Source: Streptosporangiaceae bacterium
GTDB taxonomy: Bacteria > Actinomycetota > Actinomycetes > Streptosporangiales > Streptosporangiaceae
Length of the DNA: 32,273 nt
NCBI GenBank assembly: GCA_030038295.1
Contig: JASHPF010000275.1
Coordinates: forward strand, 1-32,273
Reading direction: 5' to 3'
The notes under the pieces: generated by a model
Databases searched by the model: none
Seen by the model: the letters and a program-made list of their open reading frames with translations, nothing else
What the model was told of the DNA's origin: nothing
Position numbers and translations under genes: made by a program
In this document: positions 7,012-29,655 of the stretch, piece by piece
Position numbering within the stretch: position 1 is the stretch's first letter
Layout of the letters: each line of letters starts with the position of its first letter

Positions 7012-7551
7012 ATGAGCGACAGCGCGGCGTCCGGGTGGCCGCGGCCCGCCCGGCCGCGCCTCGCGGCTCGCTCGGCCTACGCGCTGCACGCCCTGGTCGA
7101 GCCCCGCAAGCCCTACCGCTGGCTGGCCGCCCGGCTCGAGCGGCACGCGCTGCTGCGCCGCTGGTTCACCGCTGGCGAGCGAGTCACCAAGCAGGGTCTC
7201 TTTGGCTGCCAGATGTGCGGCCAGTGCGCGCTGCCCGCGACCGGCTACGCCTGCCCGATGACGTGCCCGAAGCAGCTCAGGAACGGGCCGTGCGGCGGGG
7301 TCTCCCCGACCGGTCAGTGCGAGGTGCACCCGCAGCTGCGCTGCGTGTGGCTGATCGCGGTCGAGCGTGCCGAGCAGGCTGGTCACGGCGCAGACCTGGA
7401 CCTGCTGCAGCGCCCGGTCGATCGCCGGGAGGCCGGCCGCAGCTCCTGGGTGAACTACTGGCAGGGCCGCGACGAGGACCTGTGGGCCGCCGCGACCGAG
7501 AACGATCCTGCTCCGCTGCTGCCGCGGGCACCGGCCGGGGCACCGCGATGA
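7012..7551 (+). CDS. MetV-like protein, methylene-THF reductase C-terminal cysteine-rich domain
   Basis: A 179-residue protein matching the cysteine-rich domain that accompanies MetF in the two-subunit methylenetetrahydrofolate reductases of acetogens (MetV). Eight cysteines at 66, 69, 72, 81, 85, 94, 103 and 111 lie within the signature region VTKQGLFGCQMCGQC (58-72) and NGPCGG (91-96), enough to hold zinc or an iron-sulfur cluster. The N-terminal 50 residues are basic. The stop overlaps the metF start as ATGA, so the two are translationally coupled and very probably form a complex that reduces methylene-THF to methyl-THF. GGGAGG at 7002-7007 is the ribosome binding site. Metal content and electron donor are not visible from sequence. 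Confidence 0.82.
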   Translation: MSDSAASGWPRPARPRLAARSAYALHALVEPRKPYRWLAARLERHALLRRWFTAGERVTKQGLFGCQMCGQCALPATGYACPMTCPKQLRNGPCGGVSPTGQCEVHPQLRCVWLIAVERAEQAGHGADLDLLQRPVDRREAGRSSWVNYWQGRDEDLWAAATENDPAPLLPRAPAGAPR

Positions 7552-8582
7552 GCGTCCCGACCGCCACCGGCCCGGCCTGCCCTGGCACATCCGGTCCCGA
7601 GTTCGCTGGCCCCGAGCCGACCGCACAGGCAGGGCCGGCCAGCGGTCTGCGGGCTGCGATCGCGTCAGGCCGGTTCGTGGTCACGGCCGAGCTCGGGCCG
7701 CCGCGCGACGCGAATGCGGACGCGATCACCCGCAAGGCCGGGTTCCTGCGTGGCTGGGTGGACGCCGCGAATGTGACGGACTGCCAGGGCGCCAAGGTAA
7801 AAATGTCGAGCCTGGCCGGCAGCCTGCTGGCGCGTGCCGCCGGGGTCGAGCCGGTCATGCAGCTGACCTGCCGGGACCGCAACCGCATCGGGCTGCAGTC
7901 CGACCTGCTGGGCGCGGGCGCGCTCGGCATTCCCAACGTGCTGCTGCTGACCGGTGATCACCCGCGATATGGCGACCACCCGGACGCGAAACCCGTCTTC
8001 GACCTCGATGGCGTCCAGCTCACCTGGGCCGCCCGCACGCTGCGGGACGGCACGCTGATGTCCGGCCAGCGGCTCGAGCACCCGCCCGGCTGGCTGATCG
8101 GCACGGTGGAGAACCCGTTCGCCCCGCCGACGTCGTTCCGGGCCCGGCGACTGGCCAAGAAGGTCGCCGCCGGCGCTGAGTTCGTCCAGACCCAGTACGT
8201 GTTCGACGTCGAGCGGTTCGCGGTGTGGATGGCCGAGGTTTGCGCGCTCGGCATCCCGCGGCGCTGCGCCGTCATCGCCGGGGTGGGCCCGATCCGTTCG
8301 CTGCGGGTGCTCGAGATGCTCACCACCGGGGTGCCGGGCATCTATGTCCCCGACGAGATAGCGCGACGGCTCCGCGGCGTGCCGGCCGACAAGGTGGAGG
8401 CCGAGGGCATCAGCCTGTGCGTGGAGACGATCCAGCAGGTCGCGGGCATCCCCGGCGTCCGGGGCGTGCACGTGATGGCCTTCGGCTTCGAGCGCGGCGT
8501 GCCCGACATCCTCGAGCGGGCGGGCGTGGGCCCGCGCGCGAGCATGGCTGGTGTGCCGGAGGGTGGTGGTCATGCTCATTGA
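7548..8582 (+). CDS. metF: Methylenetetrahydrofolate reductase
   Basis: A 344-residue TIM-barrel flavoprotein that reduces 5,10-methylene-THF to 5-methyl-THF. Family landmarks are the early strand VVTAELGPPRD, the DANVTDCQGAK-type segment, GIPNVLLLTGDHP (the NAD(P)H/FAD-side loop), and GAEFVQTQYVFD, which is the highly conserved sheet near the folate site. I take the ATG at 7548, overlapping the MetV-like stop; an open frame extends upstream but lies inside that gene. The first 35 residues are low-complexity Ala/Pro/Gly and precede the fold. Downstream the next gene starts 11 bp inside metF. The pairing with a MetV-like protein suggests the short, non-classical enzyme type rather than the NADPH-regulated eukaryotic form. 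Confidence 0.9.
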   Translation: MSVPTATGPACPGTSGPEFAGPEPTAQAGPASGLRAAIASGRFVVTAELGPPRDANADAITRKAGFLRGWVDAANVTDCQGAKVKMSSLAGSLLARAAGVEPVMQLTCRDRNRIGLQSDLLGAGALGIPNVLLLTGDHPRYGDHPDAKPVFDLDGVQLTWAARTLRDGTLMSGQRLEHPPGWLIGTVENPFAPPTSFRARRLAKKVAAGAEFVQTQYVFDVERFAVWMAEVCALGIPRRCAVIAGVGPIRSLRVLEMLTTGVPGIYVPDEIARRLRGVPADKVEAEGISLCVETIQQVAGIPGVRGVHVMAFGFERGVPDILERAGVGPRASMAGVPEGGGHAH

Positions 8583-10074
8583 CTTCCGGCCGCACGCCCG
8601 GCTGCGCGGGACGAAGCCGGTGGACTTCACCACGTCCGTCACGCCGGTGGTAGCCGCGCTGGCGGAGGCGGCCGACGCGGGCTACGAGGACCTGAGCCGG
8701 GCGAGGGTGACCTGCGACTGGGTGCAGTACAAGGAGAACTTCCGCGACGTCGTCGACGTCCGGCCGCTGCTCGACTACCCGGCGACGCAGGCCGGCGCCG
8801 ACGAGCCGCCGCGGCCCGCCAGCGCGCCGGCCTACCGCTGGGAGATCGCCGTCGACGTACGCCGCAGCGCCGCGGTGCCGCTTCAGGAGCTGACGGCGGC
8901 GCGGCTGCGCGACGGCGGTGCCGGACGGGTCTTCCTGGAGGACTGGGGACCGGGCTCGCAGAGCTGCATCTGGGCCTTCAACACGCTGTACTGGACCGCG
9001 CTCGCGCAGTGGGAGAAGGCGTCGGGCCACGGCTACGAGCAGGCGCTGCCCGGCGGGGAGAGCGACGCCAGGAATCGCGACGCGGCGAGAGACCTCGTCA
9101 CCGAGCTGTTCAGCGTGTGGGACGGGCTGGCGGCGGCCGGAGCGCTGCCCGAGCAGCTCTACGTGGCCGAGCTCGGCGTGGGCAACGGCAGCCAGGCCAA
9201 GGTGTTCCTGGACGAGTTCCGCGACCTGGACGCGACCCACGGCCAGGAGTACTACCAGCGGCTGCACTACCTCATGTGCGACTACTCGCAGCACGTCCTC
9301 GACCTGGCCAGGGAGACGGTGGCGGCGCACGCGGCGCACGTCAGCTCGGTCTCGCTGGACGCGACCCGGCCGCGCCGCTCGCTGGGCTTCCTGCGCGGCC
9401 GGGTATTCCTGCTGTACATCTCCAACGTGTACGACAACCTGCCAACCGATGAGGTAGCTCAGTTCGGGGGCCAGCCATACCTGGTGCAGGCCCGTGCCTG
9501 CTTCCCGCCCGCCGAGGCGGCCGAGCTCGCGGCTTCGGTCGCCGCCACTCCCGCCGAATTGCCCGGGCTGGTGCACAAGCTGCTGCGGCTTGGCCCCGAC
9601 CTCCTCCCCGACGCCGCGCCGGGACACATCGCCGACCCCGACGCCGCGGTCGCTTTCTGGCGGCGGTCCTGGTCGGCGCTGCGGCTGGCGGAGCGCTACG
9701 TCCCGCTGACCGGTCTCGACCTGTACCGGCTGGGCACCTCGCTGACCGGGGAGATGCTCCGCCCGATGCTCGAGTCGGGCGGCGACGTCCGCATGCACGT
9801 CAGCAACGGCGCGCTGGCGAGCTTCGCCGACAGCATCGAGCTGCTGCATCCCTTCGGCAAGCTGGTCTGCCACGACCTGTTCCTGACCGAGGTCCAGGGC
9901 TACCGCACTGCGTTCCGCGGCCCGGGCAAGTACGACGGCTCGGTGGTGAACTGGGTAAACGGGCCGCTGCTCGCCCATGTCGGGCGGCGGCACGGGCTCG
10001 ACGTGCACTACGAGCCCTTCCGGCACCGGAGCGGCGGCAGCATCGTGACCATGACAGCGCAGGCACGGGACTGA
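8572..10074 (+). CDS. MidA-like SAM-fold protein of unknown role, embedded in one-carbon operon
   Basis: A 500-residue protein with a Rossmann methyltransferase core. Motif I reads AELGVGNGSQ, the following strand is YLMCDYSQHVLDLAR, and GRVFLLYISNVYDNLP corresponds to the NE-LDALP region of MidA/NDUFAF7 proteins. A C-terminal section contains CHDLFLTEVQGYRTAFRGPG, not assigned. I choose the ATG at 8572 because GGAGGG at 8558-8563 is correctly spaced; an in-frame ATG at 8551 is possible. It overlaps metF by 11 bp and is followed after 1 bp by the MetE-core gene, so it is translated together with both. Its position suggests a methyl transfer or carrier task between MetF and MetE, or a protein methyltransferase acting on an operon partner; neither is shown by the sequence. 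Confidence 0.7.
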   Translation: MLIDFRPHARLRGTKPVDFTTSVTPVVAALAEAADAGYEDLSRARVTCDWVQYKENFRDVVDVRPLLDYPATQAGADEPPRPASAPAYRWEIAVDVRRSAAVPLQELTAARLRDGGAGRVFLEDWGPGSQSCIWAFNTLYWTALAQWEKASGHGYEQALPGGESDARNRDAARDLVTELFSVWDGLAAAGALPEQLYVAELGVGNGSQAKVFLDEFRDLDATHGQEYYQRLHYLMCDYSQHVLDLARETVAAHAAHVSSVSLDATRPRRSLGFLRGRVFLLYISNVYDNLPTDEVAQFGGQPYLVQARACFPPAEAAELAASVAATPAELPGLVHKLLRLGPDLLPDAAPGHIADPDAAVAFWRRSWSALRLAERYVPLTGLDLYRLGTSLTGEMLRPMLESGGDVRMHVSNGALASFADSIELLHPFGKLVCHDLFLTEVQGYRTAFRGPGKYDGSVVNWVNGPLLAHVGRRHGLDVHYEPFRHRSGGSIVTMTAQARD

Positions 10075-10075
10075 C

Positions 10076-11157
10076 ATGGCGACCGGACCGCTGCTGGCGC
10101 AGGTACCGCAGCTACCCACGACCGTCGTCGGCTCCTATCCGGTCCCGGACTGGATGGAGCGGCTGAAGACTGACTACTTCCGCGGCCGGATGAGCCGGGC
10201 CCAGCTCGCCGACCTGCATGAGATGGCCATCAAGGCCGCGCTGCGCGATCAGGAAGTGGCCGGCATCGACATCGTCTCCGACGGCGAGCTGCGCCGCGAC
10301 AACGACATCGACTACTTCCTCGCCCGGCTGCCGGGCGTGCAGATCACGAATGCAGCGAAAGACTTCTACTTCGACTACTACGAGGCCACGCTGCCGCAGC
10401 CGCTGCCCGAGCCTGCCGGGACACCGCTGCGGCTGGCCGACGACTTCGCCTTCGCGGCCGCGCAGACCCGCGCACCGATCAAGTTCTCCTTCACCGGGCC
10501 GTTCTCCCTATCCCGCCACCTGCGCGGCAGCGCCTACCCAGACAACCGCGAGCTGATTTTGGCGATCGCGCGCATCCTGCACGACGAGGCCCGCGCGCTA
10601 GCCGACCGGGGGGCCAGCCTGCTGCAGATCGACGAGCCGTTCCTGGCCGGGCATCCGGACCAGGTGGCCACCGCGATCGAGGCGATCAACATCGTCGCCG
10701 CGGACGTGCCGGTCACCTGGGCGCTGCACGTCTGCTACGGCAACCGGTACGCCCGGCCGCTGTGGGAGGGCCACTACGATTTCCTCTTCCCCGCGGTGCT
10801 CGATGCCGCCGTAGACCAGCTCGTGCTCGAGTTCGCCCGGAAGGGCTACGAGGACCTGCCGGTGCTCGCCAAGTCCGGCTGGGACCGGGACGTCGGCCTC
10901 GGCGTGATCGACGTCAAGAGCACCGAGGCCGAGACCGCCGGGCAGGTAGCCGACCGCATCCGCCGGGCCCTCGAGTTCGTGCCGGCCAGCCGCCTGGTCA
11001 TCAACCCGGACTGCGGGCTGCGGCATGTGCCCGGCCCGGTGGCGAGGGCGAAGCTTGCCGCTATGGTCGAGGGCACCGCGGTCGTCCGTAAGGAGCTAGC
11101 CGACCGTCAGCAGACATCCCCACCGACGCCGAAACGCACGCGCAAGGAGACAACCCA

Positions 11158-11161
<4 letters not shown>
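10076..11161 (+). CDS. MetE-core cobalamin-independent methionine synthase-like methyltransferase
   Basis: A 361-residue protein corresponding only to the C-terminal catalytic barrel of MetE, which moves a methyl group to homocysteine. All four zinc ligands of that barrel can be placed: His218 and Cys220 (ALHVCYG), Glu252 (LVLEFA) and Cys313 (NPDCGL). QIDEP at 184-188 is the conserved substrate loop and TTVVGSYP at 15-22 the family opening. Classical MetE is about 750 residues and uses an N-terminal barrel to bind methyl-THF polyglutamate; that half is absent, so the methyl donor is uncertain. Short MetE-core proteins are known that take methyl from corrinoid proteins or other donors. It starts 1 bp after the MidA-like gene and overlaps metK as ATGA. 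The tail after residue 345 is basic and polar. Confidence 0.82.
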
Positions 11162-12414
<1,253 letters not shown>

Positions 12415-12416
12415 CG

Positions 12417-13334
12417 ATGACGACGGTCATAGGGCAGCCGGCGGCGGCCGCAGCGCACGGCGCCGCCGCCGGTGCACCCGCCCCGGACATCGCCAGGCTC
12501 GTGATGTGGTGCCAGGACCGGCCGGGGATCATCGCCAGCGTGGCCTCGTTCCTGCACCGCAACGGTGCCAACATCGTGCAGTCGGACCAGTACTCGAGCG
12601 ACCCGACGGGTGGGCGGTTCTTCTTGCGGGTGGAGTTCCACCTGCCGGAGGCGACCGCCCGGCTCGCCGGCCTGGAGCGGGCGTTCGCCACCGAGGTGGC
12701 AGCCGGCCTCGGCGCGCAATTCCGGCTGCGCGACACGGCGCTGCCCTCCCGGGTTGCAATTTTCGTGTCGCGCTACGACCATTGCCTGCTCGACCTGCTG
12801 TGGCGGGAGCGGCGCGGCGAGCTGCCGATCCACACGGCGCAGGTGGTCTCCAACCACGAGACCCTGCGCGCTGACGTGGCCTCGTTCGGGGTGCCGTTCG
12901 AGTGCATCCCGGTGACGAAGGACACCAAGCCGGAGGCAGAGCGCCGCGAGCTGGAGCTGCTGCGCGACCGGGTCGACGTGATCGTGCTGGCCCGCTACAT
13001 GCAAGTGCTGTCCGGAGACTTCCTGGCCCGCTGCGGCGTGCCCGTCATCAACATCCATCACTCATTCCTGCCGGCCTTCGCCGGCGCCGGGCCGTACGAG
13101 CGGGCGAAGGAACGCGGTGTGAAGCTGATCGGCGCCACGGCGCACTACGCCACCGAGGATCTGGACGAGGGACCGATCATCGAGCAGGACGTCACCCGCG
13201 TGTCGCACCGGCAGAGCGTCGCCGACCTGGCCCGGCGTGGCGCTGACATCGAGCGGACCGTGCTCGTTCGCGCGGTCGCCTGGCACTGCCAGGACCGAGT
13301 GCTCCTCGACGGCCGTACCGCCATCGTTTTCTGA
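12417..13334 (+). CDS. purU: Formyltetrahydrofolate deformylase
   Basis: A 305-residue enzyme that hydrolyses 10-formyl-THF to THF and formate. The N-terminal ACT domain (about 24-110) begins ARLVMWCQDRPGI; the formyltransferase-like domain follows with the catalytic set Asn212 and His214 in INIHHS and Asp250 in EDLDEGP. The INIHHSFLPAF stretch is typical of PurU and distinguishes it from GART, which lacks the ACT domain. An Ala-rich lead of about 20 residues precedes the ACT domain. The ATG at 12417 is 2 bp after the metK stop, with no clear ribosome binding site, suggesting coupled translation. It ends the one-carbon operon; the palindrome at 13351-13368 follows. Confidence 0.94.
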   Translation: MTTVIGQPAAAAAHGAAAGAPAPDIARLVMWCQDRPGIIASVASFLHRNGANIVQSDQYSSDPTGGRFFLRVEFHLPEATARLAGLERAFATEVAAGLGAQFRLRDTALPSRVAIFVSRYDHCLLDLLWRERRGELPIHTAQVVSNHETLRADVASFGVPFECIPVTKDTKPEAERRELELLRDRVDVIVLARYMQVLSGDFLARCGVPVINIHHSFLPAFAGAGPYERAKERGVKLIGATAHYATEDLDEGPIIEQDVTRVSHRQSVADLARRGADIERTVLVRAVAWHCQDRVLLDGRTAIVF

Positions 13335-19416: not shown

Positions 19417-19471
19417 GGCCACCAGTTGATCATCGCGGGATGTGTCGACTCTTGATGATCGTCTGGTGGCC
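19417..19471 (+). promoter_or_regulatory. Long hairpin enclosing the transposase start codon
   Basis: GGCCACCAGTTGATCATC (19417-19434) pairs with GATGATCGTCTGGTGGCC (19454-19471): 16 Watson-Crick pairs, one G-U and one mismatch, with a 19-nt loop that contains the GTG start at 19442. Transcripts reading in from outside would carry the whole hairpin and hide the start region, while a transcript beginning inside the left arm would not. Several insertion sequences protect themselves from read-through expression this way. Confidence 0.6.
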
Positions 19472-20761
19472 GATGGCGACAGGGTAGACCCTGACCGGTG
19501 GCGCGCGCTGTTTGATGAGCTGATGGGCCGGATCGCCGGCCGGTTCGGCCGGGTGGAGCCGCGGCGGCGGGCCCGGGCGTTCGTGCTGGGGCTGATCGCC
19601 GGGCTGCCGCGGAAGAACTGCTGGACGATCGCCGAGCACGCCGGGGATGTCACGCCGGACGGGATGCAGCACTTGCTGGAGCGAGCCTGCTGGGACGCTA
19701 ATGCAGTGCGCGATGACGTGCGTGGTTACGTCACCGGGCAGCTGGCTGACCCGCAGGCGGTGCTGGTGGTTGATGAGACTGGTGATGTGAAGAAGGGAAC
19801 CGCGACGGCCGGGGTGCAGCGCCAGTACACCGGCACCGCGGGCCGGGTCGAGAATGCCCAGGTAGCGGTCTACCTCACTTACGCAGGCCAGGGCGGGCAC
19901 GCCCTTATCGACCGGCGGTTGTACCTGCCGAGGTCATGGGCCGGGGATGCGGCACGGCGCGCTGCCGCCGGGATACCCGGCGATATCGAGTTCGCGACCA
20001 AGCCCGCGCTCGCGGCGCAGATGATCGGCGCGGCGCTGGATGCCGGGGTGCCTGCCGCGTGGGTTGCGGGCGATGAAGTGTACGGCGCTGATCCGGGATT
20101 ACGATCCGGGCTGCGTGACCGGCAGATCGGCTACGTGCTGGCGGTGGCCAAAGACCACCACGTCACCACGGCCGCGGGCAGGCTGCGCGCCGACGCGATC
20201 GCCCGGCGGCTGCCGCGCGCGTCCTGGCAGCGCCTGTCGGCCGGGCACGGGCTGAAGGGCCACCGCTATTACGACTGGGCCTGGGTAGCCATCGAGCCGG
20301 GCGCCCTGGGCCGGCACTGGCTGCTGATCCGCCGCAGCCGCCGCACCGGCGAGCTGGCCTGGTACCGCTGCTGGTCACCCCGCCACGTCCCGCTGGCCAC
20401 ATTCGTGCGCGTCGCCGGGCGGCGGTGGACCACCGAGGAGAATTTTCAGGCCGGCAAGGGCCTGGCTGGGCTGGACGAGCACCAGGTCCGCACCTGGACC
20501 GCCTGGCACCGCTGGGTCACCCTGGCCATGCTCGCGCTGGCGTTCCTGACCATCGCCGCTGCGGCCGAGGACAAACTGCACCCGGCAGCCGCCGGGCTGA
20601 TCCCCCTCACCCGCAGCGAGATCGCCTTCCTGTTCGCCAGCCTGATCACCACTCCGGGGCACGGCGACTGGCACCGGCTACGCTGGTCCGCCTGGCGCCG
20701 CCGCCACCAGTACCGGGCCAGGGAATGCCACTACCAGCGGCAAGCAGAACGCAGCCCATAA
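19442..20761 (+). CDS. IS701-family transposase
   Basis: A 439-residue DDE transposase. The catalytic residues fall at Asp111 (VVDETGD), Asp211 (AGDEVYG) and Glu332 or Glu333 (TTEENFQAGK), and the following GLDEHQVRTWTAWHRW segment is diagnostic for IS701-type enzymes. Start is GTG at 19442, inside the loop of the hairpin at 19417-19471, with no clear ribosome binding site; low translation is expected. The frame is complete and undamaged, so the element may still move. It would bind the 22-bp ends and cut at YTAR-type targets. Confidence 0.93.
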   Translation: MSTLDDRLVADGDRVDPDRWRALFDELMGRIAGRFGRVEPRRRARAFVLGLIAGLPRKNCWTIAEHAGDVTPDGMQHLLERACWDANAVRDDVRGYVTGQLADPQAVLVVDETGDVKKGTATAGVQRQYTGTAGRVENAQVAVYLTYAGQGGHALIDRRLYLPRSWAGDAARRAAAGIPGDIEFATKPALAAQMIGAALDAGVPAAWVAGDEVYGADPGLRSGLRDRQIGYVLAVAKDHHVTTAAGRLRADAIARRLPRASWQRLSAGHGLKGHRYYDWAWVAIEPGALGRHWLLIRRSRRTGELAWYRCWSPRHVPLATFVRVAGRRWTTEENFQAGKGLAGLDEHQVRTWTAWHRWVTLAMLALAFLTIAAAAEDKLHPAAAGLIPLTRSEIAFLFASLITTPGHGDWHRLRWSAWRRRHQYRARECHYQRQAERSP

Positions 20762-27948: not shown

Positions 27949-28071
27949 TGGTCATGTCCGTATTCCAAGCCCCTGGGTAAACTGGGCGGAGACGATGGGG
28001 CTCGTCCGCGTAACCGCCAGCGATGGCTGATGGCTCCTGACGACCGCCGCAAGGCGAGGACAGGAGCACCC

Positions 28072-29655
28072 ATGGCCGCACCGGCACAGCGCACCGAGCC
28101 GACAAGCTGCGCACGGCCCGCCTACATGAGCCTGCTGTCCGCCGCGCCGAGCGCTGAGCTGCCCGGCACCGACACGGCGGGGCAGGATTTCGTCGCCGAC
28201 GTCAACCTCGATCAGGTGATCGCGGCGATCGCGGGCGGCCGGGAGCAGCGCGAGCTGATCACTCAGGTGCTGCACCGGCAGGTCCGGGACGTCGGCACAC
28301 TCCAGTACCGGCACGAGGTCTTCCGCGACCTCGCAGATCCGGTGCTGCTCGACGCCCTCGAACGGTTCGGCGGCCACATGCGCGACGTGCGAGTCCACGT
28401 GGGCGGGCTGGCCCGGATGCGCTCGGCAGAGCAGCAGCAGGGCTGGTTCCTGGACGCGGCCGCGATCTACTGCGACGCGGTCCGGGCGCTCGCCACGACC
28501 CTGTCCGCGCGGCCAGTCGGCTCGCGTGGCTTGCGGGCGTTCCGCGACTACCTCACCGAGTACGCGGGCTCACCTGCCTTCGACCGGCTTGCCGCGGACA
28601 CGGCGGCACGCAAGGCCGACCTCAGCGGCGTCAGCTATCTCGTGCGGATCAGGGGCGGCCGCGTCGAGGTGCGCCGGTACGACGGCGAGCCGGACTACAG
28701 CGCCGAGATCGAGGCGACGTTCGCGCGCTTCGCGCAGGCCGAGGCCAAGGACTACCGGGTGCGCTACCGGACGTGGCCGGGCATGACCGGAGTCGGTGCG
28801 CAGATTGTCAGCCTCGTAGCCCGGCTGTTCCCGGCCGAGTTCGGCGCCCTTACGGAGTTCTGCCGGACGCACGCGGGGTTTGTCGACGCGGCCATCGACC
28901 AGTTCGACCGCGAGCTCCAGTTCTACCTGGCCTACCTCGACTACACCCGCCCGATGCAGGGGTCCGGGCTGGCCTTCTGCTACCCGGAGCTGTCCGCGGC
29001 CACGAAGGACATCTTCGCCCGCGACACCTTCGATATCGCGCTCGCGGCGAGACTGACCGCGAGCCACTCCCCCGTCGTGACCAACGACTTCCAGCTCACC
29101 GGGCCAGAGCGCGTCATCGTCGTGTCCGGGCCTAACCAGGGCGGCAAGACCACGTTCGCGCGGACCTTCGGCCAGCTGCACCACCTGGCCGCGGTGGGCT
29201 GCCCGGTGCCCGGCAGCGCGGCGCGGCTGTTTCTGTGCGACCAGATCCTCACCCACTTCGAGCGGGAGGAGGACATCGGCCGCCAGACCGGCAAGCTCGA
29301 GGACGATCTGCTGCGGATCCAGCGCGCCCTGCTGACCGCCACGCCCGCGAGCATTGTGATCATGAACGAGATCTTCGCCTCGACCACGCTGAGCGACGCC
29401 CGTTTCCTCGGCGGCCGGGTGCTCACCAAGATCGTCGAAAGCGACATCGTCGGCGTGTACGTCACCTTCGTCGACGAGCTCGCCGCGTTCGGGCCGAGCG
29501 TGGTGAGCATGGCAAGCACCGTCGTGCCCGGCAACCCGGCCGAGCGAACGTACAAGGTCGTGCGCAGGCCGGCCGACGGGCTGGCGTACGCGCTGGCGAT
29601 CGCCGACAAGCACCGGGTCACCTACCAGCAGCTCACCCGGCGGCTGAGCTCGTGA
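28072..29655 (+). CDS. Orphan MutS-like ATPase, first of a tandem pair
   Basis: A 527-residue protein with a C-terminal MutS-type ATPase: the P-loop is GPNQGGKTT at 353-361 and the Walker B strand VIMNE ends at Glu433, followed by IFASTT. The N-terminal 330 residues fit the MutS lever and core region, and the mismatch-recognition domain I with its Phe-x-Glu motif is absent. It therefore belongs with the short orphan MutS families, not with mismatch repair MutS. AGGAG at 28062-28066 supports the ATG at 28072. Its stop overlaps the start of the second MutS-like gene as GTGA, and the two probably make a heterodimer. Most actinobacteria lack canonical MutS/MutL, so the role is open. Confidence 0.82.
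   Translation: MAAPAQRTEPTSCARPAYMSLLSAAPSAELPGTDTAGQDFVADVNLDQVIAAIAGGREQRELITQVLHRQVRDVGTLQYRHEVFRDLADPVLLDALERFGGHMRDVRVHVGGLARMRSAEQQQGWFLDAAAIYCDAVRALATTLSARPVGSRGLRAFRDYLTEYAGSPAFDRLAADTAARKADLSGVSYLVRIRGGRVEVRRYDGEPDYSAEIEATFARFAQAEAKDYRVRYRTWPGMTGVGAQIVSLVARLFPAEFGALTEFCRTHAGFVDAAIDQFDRELQFYLAYLDYTRPMQGSGLAFCYPELSAATKDIFARDTFDIALAARLTASHSPVVTNDFQLTGPERVIVVSGPNQGGKTTFARTFGQLHHLAAVGCPVPGSAARLFLCDQILTHFEREEDIGRQTGKLEDDLLRIQRALLTATPASIVIMNEIFASTTLSDARFLGGRVLTKIVESDIVGVYVTFVDELAAFGPSVVSMASTVVPGNPAERTYKVVRRPADGLAYALAIADKHRVTYQQLTRRLSS

Follow-up and report, generated by a model that had tools for sequence, protein, structure and literature searches.

A distant MidA-like protein encoded directly before a catalytic-barrel-only metE in a folate and SAM operon of actinobacteria

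The MT locus and its operon

The window, by which we mean the whole stretch of 32,273 nucleotides from a Streptosporangiaceae bacterium, carries an operon in which a metV-like gene, metF, the gene under study (here called MT), a core metE, metK and purU overlap or nearly so (Table 1). The MT reading frame is a real gene. It is free of stops over 500 aa with a GC3 of 0.94, a GGAGG stands before its start ATG at 8572, and M1 hardly varies in the homolog alignment. As given in a preliminary description of this DNA, which was made from the sequence alone, MT overlaps metF by 11 bp (8572-8582) and is separated by 1 bp from the MetE-core gene (stop at 10072-10074, metE start at 10076). That description placed MT correctly between metF and metE but omitted the metV-like gene before metF as well as metK and purU after metE. 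Elsewhere in the window, an IS701-family transposase gene lies downstream of the operon region (19442-20761), and a 541-aa MutS-like ATPase, with weak MutS/MutS2 matches below the cut-offs, is encoded at 28030-29655.

Table 1. Positions in the window of the operon genes and of two motifs within MT
Feature	Position	Strand	Basis or remark
metV-like gene (MTHFR_C, DUF5981), Cys-rich, expected MetF partner subunit	7012..7551	+	PF12225, 89.8 bits
metF, methylenetetrahydrofolate reductase catalytic subunit	7548..8582	+	PF02219, 120.9 bits; ATGA overlap with metV
MT, MidA-like class-I SAM methyltransferase, 500 aa	8572..10074	+	Profile, fold and homolog evidence
MT motif I, E200-L-G202-V-G204-N-G206, SAM-binding motif	9169..9189	+	E200, G202, G204 and G206 invariant across 69 homologs
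MT motif IV, N285-V-Y-D-N-L-P291	9424..9444	+	Asn at the Glu position of MidA relatives
core metE, catalytic barrel only, without N-terminal folate barrel	10076..11161	+	PF01717, 153.5 bits
metK, methionine adenosyltransferase	11158..12414	+	TIGR01034, 557 bits
purU, formyltetrahydrofolate deformylase	12417..13334	+	TIGR00655, 362 bits; ATG at 12417

Gene content was counted at 45 related loci with full flanks. MT and core metE are present at all 45, metK at 35, and metV and metF at 33 each, the metV-like gene standing beside metF at all 33. Less constant are the genes for a PfkB kinase (26), a PucR-type regulator (21), PurU (19), an HMT-MTHFR fusion (16), FolD (13), AhcY (10) and Fhs (4); judged by context, the PfkB protein may be an adenosine kinase. 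In Mycobacterium deserti (locus L028), PucR, HMT-MTHFR, metV, metF, MT, metE, metK, ahcY, purU, PfkB and folD lie in one run, an 11-gene operon in which MT is the sole gene without an assigned function. This locus has metF, folD and purU together, of which the window has metF and purU only, and no methyl-entry enzyme of the corrinoid or LigM type was found among the assigned operon genes of either. Only MT and metE are left at some Actinomycetospora loci (L035, L036, L038 and L045). Within the Streptosporangiaceae/Trebonia group (L078, L079, L082, L084, L086, L087 and L090), genes for oligopeptide-type and branched-chain-type ABC transporters and for a luciferase-family enzyme flank the module, the transporters suggesting uptake of a substrate.

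The module is rare: a sample of 395 genomes of the class contained it once, in the window's own genome; another Streptosporangiaceae bacterium has a locus (L018) 90% identical to that of the window. A plasmid-borne module was considered and rejected, as no plasmid record carries MT. MetH was present in all 36 genomes checked, the MetE N-domain (PF08267) was above cut-off in 21 of these 36, and most genomes checked had more than one metK, a second copy in the window's own genome (G000) lying on contig C346. Since MetH is found in all and an extra metK in most, the module duplicates housekeeping functions, and the ubiquity of MetH rules out core MetE as the sole or housekeeping methionine synthase.

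MT has a MidA-like fold with an intact SAM site

We predicted the structure of MT alone with AlphaFold (pLDDT 88.6, pTM 0.88) and searched the model against the PDB with Foldseek, where ranks 1-5 were all COG1565/MidA structures (E 2.8e-9 to 3.7e-7; top matches 4f3n, 4g67, 1zkd and 5zu0). A sequence search of the PDB returned no direct relatives, and no NCBIfam family matched the protein. The window's MT scores 22.0 bits against Pfam PF02636 (Methyltransf_28), below the cut-off of 23.3, and an hhalign comparison with this family gave an E of 4.6e-4 and a probability of 33. However, PF02636 matches 66 of the 69 MT homologs at E<=0.01 (best 3.8e-7), at least five of them above the gathering cut-off. 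On the strength of the model, the profile matches and the invariant SAM residues, MT is a distant MidA-like enzyme; assignment to MidA is right at the level of the fold and remote by sequence, and the MidA-like SAM fold proposed in the preliminary description is thereby borne out.

Both stretches named in that description, AELGVGNGSQ (motif I) and the NVYDNLP region (SNVYDNLP in full), occur in MT with invariant key residues. In the alignment of 69 homologs, class-I SAM motifs I-III are intact, residues E200, G202, G204, G206, D237, A264, N285, D288 and P291 are invariant, and position 263 is D or E throughout. Given that 83 of the 500 positions are invariant, the chance of five out of five SAM residues all being so is about 1e-4. 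From these sequence features, MT very probably binds SAM. The exception to the MidA pattern lies in motif IV (NE..D in MidA), where N285 is Asn in all 69 homologs while the matching E171 is invariant in five PF02636 relatives; the substrate site of MT therefore differs.

MidA/NDUFAF7 is an arginine methyltransferase that acts on a complex I subunit, and the statement that this known role does not explain MT is supported, the motif-IV Glu being replaced. A role as complex I assembly factor was rejected because of the motif and the gene context. In another genome (G085, locus L118), a PF02636 relative was seen by eye directly before a NuoD-like gene, which fits the known link between MidA and complex I.

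Core MetE retains the homocysteine site and has lost the folate site

Each of the 77 core MetE sequences retains the full set of seven residues for zinc and homocysteine. By contrast, Trp539, Glu583 and Arg493, the C-barrel residues that hold methyl-folate in Thermotoga MetE (PMC539065), are kept in none of the 77, and are also missing from the MesD structure 3RPD. Because the first set is retained and the second lost, core MetE should, from its residues, be able to activate homocysteine but is not expected to take a methyl from folate in the manner of MetE. The best NCBIfam model, PRK04326 (NF003317), gives 282 bits against a cut-off of 406; PRK09121 (MesD-like) and PRK00957 (MesA-like) give 170 bits (cut-off 392) and 166 bits (cut-off 258).

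MetE-barrel paralogs are numerous in the hosts, with PF01717 matches, counted by search only, amounting to 12 in the window's own genome and 22 in G037. Some of the former lie on contigs C155, C419 and C341 (L099, L100 and L111), with relatives elsewhere; at L100, MetH is the neighbour of a MetE-barrel type of 36-40% identity, a copy of metF is close by and MT is absent. In Pseudonocardia sp. MH-G8, another MetE-barrel protein is encoded directly upstream of MT-metE (L034:7657-8967), metV and metF are absent, and peptide-type transport proteins are encoded further upstream.

MT and core metE are strictly linked

Core metE lies directly 3' of MT at all 78 independent loci with readable downstream DNA, in most of them separated from it or overlapping it by a few bases, so the arrangement is not due to chance. 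Among 60 related genomes, 12 have a core MetE at 58% identity or above, every one of them together with MT, and the next-best full-length MetE-like matches are at 40% identity or lower. Conversely, a single draft genome (G033) has purU-metF-MT and no close core metE, and its MT keeps 80 of the 83 invariant residues. In a further genome (G002) the only trace of MT is a fragment ended by a contig edge, from which nothing was inferred.

None of 42 strong splits sets the MT tree in strong conflict with that of metE, but the MT and metF trees and most other pairs agree as well, and the MT distances correlate with those of metK (0.84) and metF (0.82) as they do with those of metE (0.79). Special coevolution of MT with MetE was accordingly discarded, since neither measure singles out metE. 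To look for a physical complex, we took locus L024, where the two frames are in phase, translated it across the TGA and folded the resulting joined MT-MetE chain; the model had a pTM of 0.67 and no confident interface, with only 8 paired rows.

Proposed role of MT and its alternatives

Of the three roles offered in the preliminary description (a methyl carrier, a modifier of the MetE core, or the main SAM consumer of the module), the last fits best. MT is the one candidate user of SAM beside metK, ahcY and the PfkB kinase in the L028 operon and the only enzyme there to which no function could be assigned. We hold it about evenly balanced whether MT is in fact an active SAM-dependent methyltransferase that performs the SAM-consuming, non-housekeeping reaction in a dedicated and patchily distributed SAM-cycle/C1 module. 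Use of SAM in vivo, the direction of flux and the acceptor are what we infer, against an observed background of fold, intact SAM motifs, gene content and loss of the MetE folate site. As acceptor, tetrahydrofolate or a folate-linked compound is our leading guess, although a tentative one that could well be wrong. In such a scheme, core MetE or HMT would make methionine, core MetE loading homocysteine with a methyl from a non-folate donor, and MetK would convert the methionine to SAM; MT would then move the SAM methyl to tetrahydrofolate or a folate-linked acceptor, leaving SAH. MetV/MetF, FolD and PurU (or Fhs) would oxidise the methyl-folate to formate, the product released through PurU, and AhcY and the PfkB kinase would recycle SAH, returning it to homocysteine. 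If MT were a SAM:tetrahydrofolate (or folate-linked) methyltransferase, the module would be a cobalamin-free methyl-oxidation cycle. The G033 genome, with MT beside metF and purU and no metE, fits such a SAM-to-folate role.

Several observations weigh against this assignment. SAM motifs in a sequence are no proof that MT turns SAM over, and the pairing with metE at 78 of 78 loci is stricter than shared membership of a pathway needs. With ahcY at 10 and purU at 19 of the 45 loci, many of them do not have the complete cycle in linkage. We know of no SAM:tetrahydrofolate methyltransferase; known demethylases hand the methyl directly to folate, and the proposed route through SAM costs ATP.

The strict pairing is better matched by a MesX-like role than by transfer from SAM to folate, and it is the starting point of the main rival explanation, in which MT is the obligate partner of core MetE, comparable to MesX or to the N-terminal barrel, in a two-part cobalamin-independent methionine synthase. 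MT would here bind the methyl donor, methyl-folate or other, and present the methyl to zinc-bound homocysteine. Both the partnership and this way of working are possible, but we doubt them. A core MetE without its own folate site needs another donor route, and a dedicated partner has a published two-gene precedent in MesD/MesX (PMC7857596). The position directly 5' of metE, the confinement of close core MetE to genomes with MT, the absence of strong tree conflict, the frequent adjacency of metF and the Actinomycetospora loci reduced to the pair all agree with it. However, SAM cannot be the net source of methyl for methionine, and the invariant, intact SAM site is thus left unexplained, as are ahcY, the PfkB kinase and purU. 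The joined model gave no confident interface, the distance correlations are as high with metK and metF as with metE, and G033 keeps MT without a close core metE. The methyl carrier of the preliminary description is in keeping with the strict pairing and the lost folate site, but is opposed by the lack of a detected interface, by the intact SAM site and by G033.

A sub-case of SAM consumption, with the acceptor outside folate metabolism, would have MT methylate an external small molecule (a natural product, an osmolyte or the compound with which a breakdown pathway begins) while the other genes regenerate SAM. SAM-regeneration genes do stand beside a SAM-using methyltransferase in estrogen breakdown (PMC7448270), and the transporters and luciferase-family enzyme around the module in the Streptosporangiaceae/Trebonia group would suit it, but we consider it unlikely: there is no further conserved enzyme of biosynthesis or catabolism that most loci have in common, the effect of purU and folD is to empty the one-carbon pool and not to fill it, and core MetE is without the folate site needed for regenerating SAM in this way. 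Least of all do we expect a protein methyltransferase, like MidA/NDUFAF7, that modifies core MetE or MetF, which we judge very improbable. The fold, the weak sequence relation to MidA and the adjacency of the genes are in keeping with it, but the Glu of the MidA motif is Asn throughout, G033 retains MT in the absence of core metE, and no target site was identified; for the modifier of the MetE core suggested in the preliminary description we obtained no positive evidence.

Whether MT turns out to belong to a two-part methionine synthase of a new kind, to act as a SAM sink or to open a new methyl route from SAM to folate, the module adds one more core MetE family, this one from aerobic soil actinobacteria, with a different partner that is universally linked and has an intact SAM site. 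The gene content of the operon names most of the chemistry around MT, and since the hosts include culturable Pseudonocardia, Nonomuraea and Mycolicibacterium, the question is directly testable.

Comparison with known systems

We found no published description of the MT-core MetE pair, and none of the closest known systems matches the module on all defining features. With MidA/NDUFAF7 (COG1565, PF02636) MT shares the class-I SAM fold, motif I and an x-D-x-L-P motif IV. It is, however, only 10-15% identical to these proteins, falls below the Pfam cut-off in the window, has Asn for the motif-IV Glu and sits in a SAM/folate operon.

To our knowledge, four families of core methionine synthases have been published, among them the aerobic MesD. 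Core MetE resembles these MesA-D enzymes in consisting of the catalytic barrel only, in keeping the zinc and homocysteine residues and in having lost the folate residues. The PRK04326 model was presumably built on archaeal catalytic subunits; the MT operon differs in that it has no N-terminal Meth_synt_1 partner and the C-barrel folate residues of its core MetE are absent. MesD/MesX, a published two-gene system (PMC7857596), likewise combines a core MetE lacking the folate barrel with a dedicated partner gene. However, neither the window's MT nor any of its 69 homologs matches PF08908 (MesX), so MT is not a MesX homolog; core MetE scores under the MesD model cut-off, and metV/metF, metK and purU are linked in the MT operon. 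A search of 27 host genomes did not find MesX, in a search whose positive control gave no signal.

The folate branch of the operon has its counterpart in chloromethane use, where metF, folD and purU serve methyl oxidation (PMC3621897). That system (cmuABC, metF2, folD, purU) has the same kind of duplicated, clustered metF/folD/purU branch, but the MT operon has SAM-cycle genes in place of the corrinoid methyltransferase. Estrogen degraders, in turn, have SAM-regeneration genes adjoining a SAM-using catabolic methyltransferase (PMC7448270), and what the two clusters share near the methyltransferase gene is a gene for SAM synthetase, one for SAH hydrolase and one for adenosine kinase, the last judged by context in the MT module; the estrogen cluster relies on MetH and the corrinoid EmtABCD, whereas the MT module has a core MetE and a MidA-like enzyme.
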